A DNA stretch of 64,000 bases from an uncultured Gemmiger sp. (GTDB taxonomy: Bacteria; Bacillota; Clostridia; Oscillospirales; Ruminococcaceae), in NCBI GenBank assembly GCA_947629015.1, contig CANRCB010000007.1, positions 23,263 through 87,262 of the forward strand, given 5' to 3'. Of this stretch, positions 2,185 to 52,956 are shown piece by piece. The stretch's first letter is position 1, and the number at the start of each line of letters is the position of its first letter. Under the pieces are notes generated by a model. It saw only the letters and a program-made list of their open reading frames with translations, did no database searches and had not been told where the DNA came from. The translations under genes were made by a program, and so were the position numbers.

Positions 2185-2340
2185 TGTCAGACTGTCGAAA
2201 AACGATCATCGCTTTATGGAAGTGTGTAGGGCGGGCTCTTGAGCCCGCCGGAAAACATCGTTGCAGCGGCAAGGAGGATGCGGCGGGGGCAAGCCCCCGC
2301 CCTACAAATCTACCCGTGAAAGCGCTTTTTTGACACACTA
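2185..2340. mobile_element. 156-bp insert between two copies of a terminator hairpin (element D)
   Basis: No coding capacity is visible. The insert is bounded by exact 26-base direct repeats of the terminator hairpin. Its two ends resemble inverted repeats: AGACTGTCGAAAAAC reading in from the left, and AGTGTGTCAAAAAAGC reading in from the right on the other strand. Inside are two small hairpin modules, one around GGGCGGGCTCTTGAGCCCGCC and one around GGGGGCAAGCCCCC followed by GCCCTACAAA. Modules like these recur at 5.9, 21.7, 33 and 52.5 kb. The arrangement suggests a MITE-like insertion that duplicated its target, but transposition is inferred. Confidence 0.5.
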
Positions 2341-3469: not shown

Positions 3470-3510
3470 AAGCGTTGCGTTTGGCCGCCGCAAAAGCGGC
3501 GGCATATGGC

Positions 3511-3608
3511 AAAACTCCCTACGCCGGCATTACCCGGATCAGGTTTCAAGGCGACCTGGGGCTGCAATTTGCCCCAATCTCAGCCGAGGATGCCCTCAGC
3601 GCCCCTGT
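3511..3608 (-). promoter_or_regulatory. TPP (thiamine pyrophosphate) riboswitch, THI element
   Basis: Reading the minus strand, the aptamer shows the invariant parts of the class in order: GGGGCGCTGAGGG, then GGCTGAGATT, a short variable arm, GCCTTGAAACCTGATCCGGG, TAATGCCGGCGTAGGGAG. These correspond to the CUGAGA pyrimidine-sensor bulge and the CCUGAUC/GUAAUGCCGGCGNAGGGA pyrophosphate-sensor region. It lies about 115 bases upstream of thiT, on the same strand, and downstream of a good promoter. Binding of thiamine pyrophosphate should terminate or block thiT expression. Confidence 0.96.
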
Positions 3609-3624
3609 TTTTATGTCCAGACAC

Positions 3625-10178: not shown

Positions 10179-10193
10179 ACCGGCGCACAAAAA

Positions 10194-10217
10194 CCCCGGC
10201 CCGCGCGGGCCGGGGCG
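10194..10217. repeat. Terminator-like hairpin, copy 1 of a 24-base duplication flanking element A
   Basis: The perfect palindrome CCCCGGCCCGC/GCGGGCCGGGG plus CG recurs exactly at 10616-10639. Copy 2 lies 10 bases from the stop of the PRPP gene, as expected for its terminator. Confidence 0.7.
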
Positions 10218-10615
10218 CAGACTGTCAAAAAAGAGGTATTTAAAATCTATCGGCCTCGGCTGACATGTGCGGACGAGGCCGATACCTCTAGAGCAAAAAA
10301 TCACGGTCGAGTCGCCTTTGGCATGAGAACGGGATTTTTTGCGATGGAGTGTGTCCAAGAGAGGGGTGCGAAGCGGCGCTATTTATAGTCCGCGTTCGCG
10401 GACGTATATTTCGGTCACGCCCTCGCTCGACGCTGTGCGCCCGCAGGCGCCTGCCGGAGCGCAACCGCCGCAAAGCGGCGGCTCTTAGCGCATAGGCTCG
10501 GGCGTTTGCGCCCTGCCAAACTATTTTTGGCAAAATATTTTGGCAGGCGGCGGGCATAGCCCGCCGTGCGCAAAACCCCTCTTTTGCAGCGTGTCGAGGA
10601 ACTCGACACGCTGAG
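10218..10615 (-). mobile_element. 398-bp intergenic element A with covarying hairpin module
   Basis: It contains no plausible gene. It is flanked by exact 24-base copies of a hairpin and starts with CAGACTGTCAAAAAA. Read on the minus strand it holds four stems in order. S0 is CAGCGTGTCGAG/CTCGACACGCTG at 10587-10613. S1 is ACCCCTCTTTTG paired with CAAGAGAGGGGT (10575-10586 with 10356-10367). S2 is 10293-10302 with 10333-10342. S3 is TATCGGCCTCG/CGAGGCCGATA at 10248-10284. The same order and loop sequences occur at 33.6 and 46.7 kb. About 200 bases of additional small palindromes fill the S1 loop here. It lies between two minus-strand genes, in the same orientation. Confidence 0.6.
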
Positions 10616-10639
10616 CCCCGGCCCGCGCGGGCCGGGGCG
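10616..10639 (-). terminator. Terminator-like hairpin, copy 2, after the PRPP synthetase-like gene
   Basis: Same 24 bases as 10194-10217. It lies ten bases past the stop at 10650. There is no clear T-run, so termination strength is uncertain. Confidence 0.55.
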
Positions 10640-32820: not shown

Positions 32821-33525
32821 CCCGCCGCGCAGCGGCCGGATGAGAGGAAACGGGATGCCGTTTGCGGGGCATTTTTGTCCCCCCTCATCCGGCCGCTGCG
32901 CGGCCACCTTCCCCCCAAGGGGGAAGGCTTTAAGAGCGAGATGCCCCGGAAGGCTTCCCCCTCTGGGGGCGGCGGGGTGAGGGCACCCCGCCCTACACGC
33001 CGAAGGCGACTGATGAGGGGAAACGGGATTCCGTTTGCGGGAAGGCAATCGCCACCCTCCACGCGCACCCTGCGGGAAAATTGTAGGGCGGGCCTTCAGG
33101 CCCGTCGTGGCGCAAACGGTTGTCCGATATCCCCTTATGGCGCGCGTACGCGCGCCGCCCATTTTGGAACGGCTCTCGCTGCGCGCCGCTTTGCGGCGCG
33201 CAGCTCCGGCCGTTTTTGCCCGCGGCGCATGGCGCCGCAGGCAAAAACCCCCGCCCTACAAAGTGACCGGAAATGGGATACCGTTTGCGGGGCATTTTTT
33301 GTCCCCCCTCATCCGGCCGCTACGCGGCCACCTTCCCCCGGAGGGGGAAGGCTTTAAGAGCGCGATGCCTCGGAAGGCTTCCCCCTCTGGGGGCGGCGGG
33401 GTGAGGGCAAGGCCCTACACGCCGAAGGCGACTGATGAGGGGAAACAGGATTCCGTTTGCGGGGAGAAGGGGCCGGACGGCCCCGCGGGGTACCGGGCGG
33501 GCAGTATAATTCACCGGTGCACAAA
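32821..33525. repeat. Repeat-rich intergenic region with a 190-bp duplication
   Basis: No gene is supported. Two copies of a 190-bp unit lie at about 32850-33040 and 33274-33462. They share TTTGCGGGGCATTTTT, CCCCTCATCCGGCCGCT, CCCCCTCTGGGGGCGGCGGG and GCCGAAGGCGACTGATGAGG with about 90 % identity by eye. Between them are a TAGGGCGGGCCTTCAGGCCC hairpin module and the ATGGCGCGCGTACGCGCGCC unit also seen at 5.99 kb, with its own AACGGCTCTCG hairpin (33168-33215). Most units are themselves inverted repeats. Confidence 0.75.
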
Positions 33526-33556
33526 CACGAAGCCCCGCCTTGCGGCGGGGCTTCGT
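33526..33556. repeat. 31-base hairpin, left copy flanking element B
   Basis: The palindrome GAAGCCCCGCC/GGCGGGGCTTC sits within CACGA...TTCGT. The identical 31 bases recur at 33778-33808. Confidence 0.75.
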
Positions 33557-33777
33557 CCAGCGTGTCGCGTGCCGCGACACGCTGCAAGAGAGGGGTTCGG
33601 CTTTGCTGGCTGCGCCAGTCCGCCTGCACCCCTCTCTTGAACACACCCCGTCGCAAAAAATACCGTGCGCATGCCTTACAGGCGATTTGCACGGTATTTT
33701 TGCTCTGGCGGTATCGCCCTTGTCGGCACATGTCCGCCAAGGGCGATGGATTTAAAATATATCGTTTCGACAGTATG
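33557..33777 (+). mobile_element. 221-bp element B with covarying hairpin module
   Basis: It lies between exact 31-base hairpin copies and has no coding capacity. Stems in order: S0 CAGCGTGTCGCG/CGCGACACGCTG (33558-33584). S1 CAAGAGAGGGGT/ACCCCTCTCTTG (33585-33596 with 33628-33639). S2 GCAAAAAATACCGTGC/GCACGGTATTTTTGC (33653-33668 with 33689-33703). S3 ATCGCCCTTG/CAAGGGCGAT (33713-33747) with loop TCGGCACATGTCCGC. It ends TCGACAGT, the inverse of the ACTGTCRAAA end seen in the related elements. It is oriented with the flanking + strand genes. Confidence 0.65.
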
Positions 33778-33808
33778 CACGAAGCCCCGCCTTGCGGCGG
33801 GGCTTCGT
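33778..33808. repeat. 31-base hairpin, right copy flanking element B
   Basis: Identical to 33526-33556. About 280 bases remain before the Lrp gene. Confidence 0.75.
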
Positions 33809-46595: not shown

Positions 46596-46805
46596 CCTTG
46601 TAGGGGGGAGGTTCGGCTTGGTTGGCTCGCGCGCTTTGCGCGCTCCCCAAGTCGCCTGCACCTCCCCCTTAGATCCCCCTCCGTCGCAAAAATGCCTTGT
46701 TCATGCCTGAAGGCGACTCACTGCGGCATTTTTGCTCTAGCGGTATCGCCATCGTCGGCACATATCCGCCGATGGCGATGGATAAAAATGTTGCCTGCCA
46801 TATTT
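46596..46805 (+). ncRNA. Candidate structured RNA/element C between MBOAT and DltD-like genes
   Basis: No gene. Stems: S1 AGGGGGGAGGT/ACCTCCCCCTT (46602-46612 with 46660-46670). S2 GCAAAAATGCC/GGCATTTTTGC (46686-46696 with 46725-46735). S3 ATCGCCATCG/CGATGGCGAT (46745-46779) with loop TCGGCACATATCCGC. All correspond to stems of elements A and B with different but complementary bases. The single-stranded parts GGTTCGGCTT, GTCGCAAAAA and TTTTTGCTCT are conserved. The S0 stem and the flanking hairpin duplication are missing. It is co-directional and ends 19-44 bases upstream of the next ATG, so it could act on that gene. Confidence 0.55.
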
Positions 46806-52430: not shown

Positions 52431-52920
52431 AGCGGGGGCAAGACCCCGCCCTGCAAACCACCCGGGAACAACATTTGCAGTAAGGTTCGGGGCGTCGGGG
52501 ACGCCGCCCCCTACAAACCCGATGCTATGTTTCTCGCGGTTTGCGGGCCGATTGTAATCGGCCCCTACGGATAGACCGTGGGTGTCTGCAAAACCGTTAG
52601 GTGCGCTCTGCCCATAGCGGCGCGCAGCGCGGCGTGAGCGTGGACGGCGCCGCAAGGTGGCGCCCGTCCGGCGGACGGGGGATGGTGCCCGCCGAAATAC
52701 CCGGGCGATATCTTGCCTCGGGGGATTCCAAAGGGGGAACCCCCTTTGGTCGTGGGTCCGCTGCATGCGAAACCAGCGGGACCTTTTCGGTTCCTTTTCG
52801 GTCACGAAAAGGAACGGTAAAAAGCCAAATCCCGGTAAAATGCGGCAGCCAACGGGCCCCGCGGCGGGGTCAAGACCCCGCCCTACAATTCTACCCATAA
52901 AAGCGCTTTTTGACACACTG
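52431..52920. repeat. 490-bp mosaic intergenic region E between hflX and its terminator
   Basis: No gene is supported. It opens with GGGGGCAAGACCCCGCCCTG and continues with AAGGTTCGGGGCGTCGGGGA, then TTTGCGGGCCGATTGTAATC. All are modules found at 2.3, 5.9 or 21.7 kb. It ends with GGGGTCAAGACCCCGCCCTA, then CTACCCATAAAAGCGCTTTT, TTGACACACT. The last part is nearly identical to the end of element D at 2.3 kb, again directly before a terminator hairpin. Confidence 0.65.
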
Positions 52921-52956
52921 AAATCGCCTGCCCCGGTGCCGTGGCAGGCGATTTTG
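52921..52956. terminator. Terminator shared by hflX and the convergent SPFH gene
   Basis: A 12-bp stem (AAATCGCCTGCC/GGCAGGCGATTT) with TTTTGG on the + strand. It lies 490 bases from the hflX stop and 18 bases from the SPFH stop. Confidence 0.7.

Follow-up and report, generated by a model that had tools for sequence, protein, structure and literature searches.

Gene-less miniature elements of Gemmiger carry a structured three-hairpin module between copies of a duplicated hairpin, with an IS1182-family transposase as their probable mover

Bacterial MITEs, RU and BOX repeats are short, gene-less and intergenic, occur in many copies, and possess terminal repeats and internal hairpins. Among insertion sequences (IS), IS1272 of the IS1182 family and TnSha1 are described to insert structure-dependently into stem-loops (Furi 2016, PMC4923244; Wan 2017, PMC5678879). 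The targets reported for IS1272 are hairpins, several of them confirmed terminators, with no sequence consensus; the element has 16-bp inverted repeats, and one target was hit in both orientations (PMC4923244, PMC5678879). A hypothetical "pathway b" for IS1272, with joining at the 5' feet and hence duplication of the entire stem-loop, was drawn by Wan et al. (2017), and by their account such duplications were not seen (PMC5678879). Transposases related to IS1182 are discussed as acting with or without target duplication and as recognising sequence or DNA structure (PMC12056078), and a table row lists a 4-bp duplication for ISPse1 of the IS1182 family (PMC3281130).

The window analysed here is a stretch of 64,000 nucleotides from an uncultured Gemmiger sp. 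(contig CANRCB010000007.1), whose genome assembly (G000) is 87% complete and consists of 75 contigs. A preliminary description, made from the sequence alone, had placed three copies (A, B and C) of a multi-hairpin element in this window, each with the hairpins S1-S2-S3. A structure model built from 60 copies re-found all three at the same places (B at 33586-33748, plus strand, 179 bits; C at 46602-46780, plus strand, 134 bits; A at 10248-10383, minus strand, 107 bits). The stem sequences that had been quoted for S3 and S0 were correct, and the extents given for A and B (10218-10615 and 33557-33777) were approximate, with the ends as listed in Table 1. Two stretches thought to be single-stranded, TCGCAAAAA and TTTTTGCTCT, are mostly paired, and GCAAAAA and TTTTTGC form the base of S2.

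Table 1. Features of elements A, B and C and of a second element type in the window.
Feature	Position	Strand	Remarks
Element B, complete	33558..33777	+	220 bp; 5' end CAGCGTGTCG, 3' end CGACAGTATG
Left copy of the duplicated hairpin of B	33526..33556	+	31 bp; one additional C ahead of the element
Right copy of the duplicated hairpin of B	33778..33808	+	31 bp, identical to the left copy
S0 of B, subterminal hairpin containing the left terminal repeat	33558..33584	+	
S1 of B	33586..33638	+	
S2 of B	33653..33703	+	stem closed by GCAAAAA...TTTTTGC
S3 of B	33713..33747	+	CATGTC in the loop
Element A, complete	10218..10613	-	396 bp; approx. 190-nt insert within S1
Gene-proximal (left) hairpin copy at A	10614..10639	-	25/26 identical to the right copy
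Right hairpin copy at A, then T-run	10192..10217	-	terminator-like in the terminator scan
Element C, S1-S3 module	46602..46780	+	lacks S0, the terminal repeats and a duplicated hairpin
Second element type	2188..2340	-	same ends, other interior; 29-bp hairpin on each side, 28/29 identical

In A and B the three-hairpin module lies between terminal inverted repeats with no gene inside. The imperfect repeats CAGCGTGTCG and CAGACTGTCG are found at the ends of A, of B and of the second element type. A is flanked by a ribose-phosphate pyrophosphokinase-like gene and a Mur-ligase gene, and C begins approx. 5 nt downstream of the stop codon of an MBOAT gene. The insertion, the terminal repeats and the duplicated hairpins (24-31 bp) that border both A and B had escaped the preliminary description. 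We read A and B as copies of a gene-less miniature transposable element located between hairpin copies and most likely moved in trans by an IS1182-family transposase.

Five additional model matches in the window were weak (12-32 bits). Since the opposite strand of B itself scores 32 bits, weak hits alone were not trusted, and hits below approx. 35 bits were accepted only with visible ends or hairpin duplications. At 52880-52922 (minus strand) the window holds the 5' end of another second-type element, adjoining a hairpin; by exact pattern, second-type 5' ends numbered 27 in G000, 32 in G018 and 0 in G011. The insert in S1 of A spans 10384-10570, similar ones were seen in L001, L131 and L152, and related inserts occur in other copies and genomes. 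A hairpin-rich insert of approx. 61 nt or longer was present in the S3 loop of L013, L014, L015, L018, L026, L031 and L034, in all three genomes, and L001 and L025, from different genomes, both end abruptly within the S3 loop and have GTTTTTCGCGCACATAT in common shortly afterwards. The intergenic region upstream of B (33060-33480) appeared by eye to be composed of other repeats.

The bordering hairpins vary in sequence between sites and agree within a site; thus the hairpin is the duplicated target and not a part of the element. In three genomes the flanking hairpins matched in 59 of 119 candidate end pairs, 51 of them directly, 5 with inverted loops and 3 symmetrically, and 60 had no flanking match; false pairings and decayed copies are among the candidates. 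A direct flanking-repeat score of at least 12 was reached by 55 of the 119 end pairs compared with 1 of 2000 mismatched pairs, and a repeat of this control gave 1/1500 direct and 1/1500 inverted matches. The duplicated length was 14-41 bp (median 28), and an unbroken stem of at least 6 bp was present in 49 of the 55 duplicated repeats as against 27% of 3000 random 28-mers of the window. At further loci (38 from other genomes, 2 from G000) a duplication at a score of at least 15 was detected in 10 of 40, with 0/3000 in the null set. Tandem cases were also found, in which two elements and three hairpin copies follow each other in series (L127, L014/L118). A stem-loop replacement of the IS1272 type, where the hairpin is deleted and no duplication arises, does not describe these sites, as the hairpin lies on both sides.

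The locus of A provided an empty site. In G018 the matching intergenic region behind the ribose-phosphate pyrophosphokinase gene (L387, 91% identity) contains one hairpin, and in G000 the order is hairpin, A, hairpin. Among 31 other listed loci at this site an element was recognised by eye in two. One of them (L360, G002) holds an element of another subfamily, reversed and adjoining the terminator-like hairpin of the site, and the other (G011) a copy without ends, upstream of this hairpin. The site was probably hit by insertion more than once.

In five of the 59 matching pairs, one of them truncated (L103), the copies agreed better as reverse complements, with their loops inverted. The hairpins flanking an IS1182 insertion in G011 were likewise loop-inverted. 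The inversion could have arisen either at insertion, when the cruciform strands went to opposite sides, or by later template switching. By eye L044 was also loop-inverted, outside the five scored pairs.

By a simple rule, 31 of the 59 matching copies had a T- or A-run beside the hairpin (15 with a T-run behind the right hairpin, 13 with an A-run ahead of the left hairpin and 3 with both) and 28 had neither. "Terminator" as the target therefore fits about half of the matching copies by this rule, and this mixture of sides shows that the copies do not generally run with their flanking genes, as had been stated for A, B and C. At A the terminator scan called the right hairpin terminator-like in its own direction, and three other sites on the opposite strand. 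Neither copy of the flanking hairpin of B is followed by a T-run and neither was called. S2 or S3 as an intrinsic terminator was dropped, since the scan calls none at B or C.

The exact core pattern was found 17 times in G000, 21 times in G011 and 58 times in G018, all of one genus, and in 0 of 58 other genomes in the same search, which holds for the exact pattern only. With strict filters the structure model gave 19 copies in G000, all above 106 bits. When 84,980 species, each represented by a single genome, were scanned (the window's own species may be left out), the pattern occurred solely in uncultured Gemmiger sp. Lapin-030 bin95 and Lapin-028 bin58. The structure model, which is looser, had hits in 28 of 35 Gemmiger genomes at E<=0.001 and in 9 of 148 genomes of the family, the weak ones of which may be due to chance; hits above 108 bits were present in at least 11 of the 35 Gemmiger genomes among the matches listed. 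The full architecture of ends and duplicated hairpins was seen in G012, G191, G091, G164 and, by eye, G116, the last four of which represent four genera beyond Gemmiger.

The fold of B was better than 200 of 200 shuffles (z = -9.3). Among 60 distinct copies both sides had changed in 18 of 54 pairs, and 94.6% of the cells were paired. None of 500 shuffles of this alignment was as high on four of five covariation measures and all 500 were as high on the fifth (further pair types, 32); kinship among copies can beat shuffles in this test without any structure. An alignment of 22 copies, most of them end-less, had changes on both sides in 30 of 54 pairs; S3 was 99.4% paired, and on no measure did any of 500 shuffles score as high. 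The corresponding value was 42 of 54 pairs for the 22 matches that the model gave in 20 loci, taken from G012 and from other genera; both 22-row alignments were fitted to the structure model and lean towards it. Alignment A6 differs from A5 in the omission of three weak matches (23-26 bits) and of two strong ones from source L027, and alignment A4 includes two weak matches of 15 bits. Unpaired letters were conserved across copies, with invariant ones in the mostly end-less set. The conserved loops and covarying stems of the preliminary description thus held.

The preliminary description could not match the element to a named family, and indeed no Rfam 15 family reached its gathering score on the elements. 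Over the whole window this search returned just a TPP riboswitch, at 3499-3616 (minus strand), and two tRNAs, both elsewhere, and on eight loci (relatives or C) the sole gathering-score match was a tRNA. In e-value mode B gave 22 matches, mostly short GC hairpins, which were rejected as all lay under the gathering scores.

A simple end rule divided 80 copies into 44 with both ends, 16 with one and 20 with neither (naked copies), C being among the latter. A sense gene ends upstream of 24 of the 44 both-ended copies and a converging gene ends downstream of 25; these copies therefore have no preferred orientation. A sense stop codon precedes 17 of the 20 naked copies, for 16 of them at a distance of no more than 20 nt; L005, 63 nt from the stop codon, is probably a variant with ends. 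Seventeen loci of G004, G031, G027, G021, G034, G013 and G019 comprised 12 naked copies, 4 with one end and 1 with both; L391-L408 were chosen from the top of the model-hit list, and the shares of naked copies there are biased. The genes upstream of the naked copies tested encode a class II tRNA synthetase, glutamate dehydrogenase, a RidA-type protein, an M24 peptidase, purH and bipA. A small hairpin of a different kind is often visible by eye directly ahead of S1, either overlapping the stop codon or lying behind it (L393, L401, L403 and others).

Three loci have a copy in the same position in more than one Gemmiger species (two or three). At the class II tRNA-synthetase locus of three species the element is 87-93% identical, the upstream coding sequence 90-95%, and the downstream 150 bp 44-70% with many gaps. 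This suggests, by sequence comparison, vertical keeping of the same-locus copies. Naked copies at unrelated sites were as alike as same-locus ones (89%, one pair tested), and thus homogenisation may also account for the likeness. We read C as a domesticated or relic copy of the module which, without ends, stays with its operon. A wider reading, which we hold to be possible rather than probable, would give a family-wide structured RNA, new to Rfam, a double life, in some lineages on an IS1182-type transposon that copies terminator hairpins whole and so keeps the host terminator working, and in others as an end-less RNA fixed at the 3' ends of housekeeping genes. If true, the genes concerned would be those of a seryl-type tRNA synthetase, glutamate dehydrogenase, purH and bipA, and the inverted loops would be footprints of cruciform transposition.

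Of ten Gemmiger genomes searched for IS1182-family transposases, five gave matches, one of which exceeded the curated cut-off. Ends near-identical to those of the elements lie beside IS1182 transposase pieces in G011 (L171/L182, L161, L164) and G018 (L177), and these transposase-bearing pieces terminate in CAGACTGTC.../...GACANNCTG next to hairpins; in G018 the transposase is represented just by an open frame of 53 aa, where a contig begins. At L161 the assembly has one hairpin copy, and a second flank was not found. In G091, of another genus, four IS1182 insertions (ends CAGACCGCTGACAAAG...GTCAGTAATCTG) have the whole hairpin duplicated on both sides, each insertion being a pair of contig ends matched through its hairpins. 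Because IS1182 insertion sequences of relatives have similar ends and, in G091, duplicate the whole hairpin, an IS1182 transposase is the likely mover. The ends of the G091 insertion sequence and of the miniature elements of G091 are not shared letter for letter. The 87% complete assembly of G000 gave no IS1182 transposase hit at E<=0.001, and among its listed 5' and 3' ends no large autonomous element with both ends was found. Of eight other model-hit genomes, five gave no IS1182 transposase hit (G012, 98% complete; G164, 97%; G116; G140; G069).

The S1-S3 module could instead be primarily a structured RNA selected by the host at gene 3' ends, with the terminal repeats secondary. The position of naked copies behind sense stop codons, their retention behind the tRNA-synthetase gene in three species, and the covariation and invariant unpaired letters of the mostly end-less alignment, which leans towards the model, are consistent with this. 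We consider it doubtful, as elements with ends in four other genera speak against a recent capture of these ends, L392 and L402 instead lie directly at the stop codon of a gene on the opposite strand, and naked copies at unrelated sites are equally alike in the pair compared. The covariation itself might not stem from selection for structure. Where inverted repeats occur, template switching is able to make the two arms alike and to turn the spacer around (PMC8604942, PMC8794818), and covariation among repeat copies therefore argues less strongly for selection than it seems to. The loop-inverted flanking pairs correspond to the spacer inversion named in PMC8604942, and among the changed cells of the 60 copies 167 were altered on both sides and 49 on just one (summed from the table). 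That arm homogenisation produced the whole pattern nevertheless seems improbable, though well within reason, since the S3 loop and the unpaired, asymmetric stretches of S2 vary little across copies and species and arm copying alone would be insufficient for this.

A different hairpin-directed enzyme, such as a Cas1-like integrase, a group IIC intron or an HUH nuclease, could also have made the insertions. CRISPR spacer integration duplicates a palindromic repeat of comparable length, and group IIC introns insert at terminators. Group II introns are not known to make a target duplication; no Rfam intron model matched in the window, and A and B measure just 396 and 220 bp. The similar ends together with the whole-hairpin duplication point to IS1182, and we regard another enzyme as very unlikely.

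In the mechanism that we propose for IS1182-type insertion, the transposase would bind the terminal repeats (CAGNSTGTC...) and would recognise its target by shape, namely a stem-loop or cruciform that is extruded and in many cases a terminator. On each strand a 3' end of the element would then be joined to the hairpin at its 5' foot, and gap filling would copy the entire stem-loop to both sides. The ends, the copy number, the hairpin duplication, the empty site for A and the IS1182 transposase genes with similar ends are observed, whereas the identity of the transposase that moved these copies, the order of its cuts and any use of the module to the element or the host are inferred. The suggested route would allow an element to enter terminators, yet an intact hairpin would remain downstream.

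The titles and opening lines of abstracts that the literature searches listed contained no report of an A/B-type element or of a whole-hairpin duplication by an IS. With IS1272 and TnSha1 the elements share the hairpin as target; however, IS1272 deletes or replaces the hairpin without duplication, whereas A/B-type elements duplicate it whole. They look like pathway b of Wan et al., and would give natural evidence, at dozens of sites, for an outcome of the IS1182 type that was proposed but unseen for IS1272. For the IS1182 family at large, no whole-hairpin-duplicating member was seen in the discussion in PMC12056078, and ISPse1 duplicates 4 bp. Like MITEs, RU and BOX repeats, the elements are short, gene-less, intergenic and multi-copy, with terminal repeats and internal hairpins, but their three-hairpin interior covaries across genera and their target hairpin is duplicated whole. 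Conserved loops and covarying stems are common to them and to structured RNA candidates of Rfam, from which they differ in having no gathering-score match; they add a cross-genus structured element of gut bacteria without an Rfam entry, and they warn that hairpin covariation among repeat copies need not imply RNA function. A miniature element of a hairpin-seeking IS family is in itself known; new are the whole-hairpin duplication, the conserved structured cargo and its two forms.
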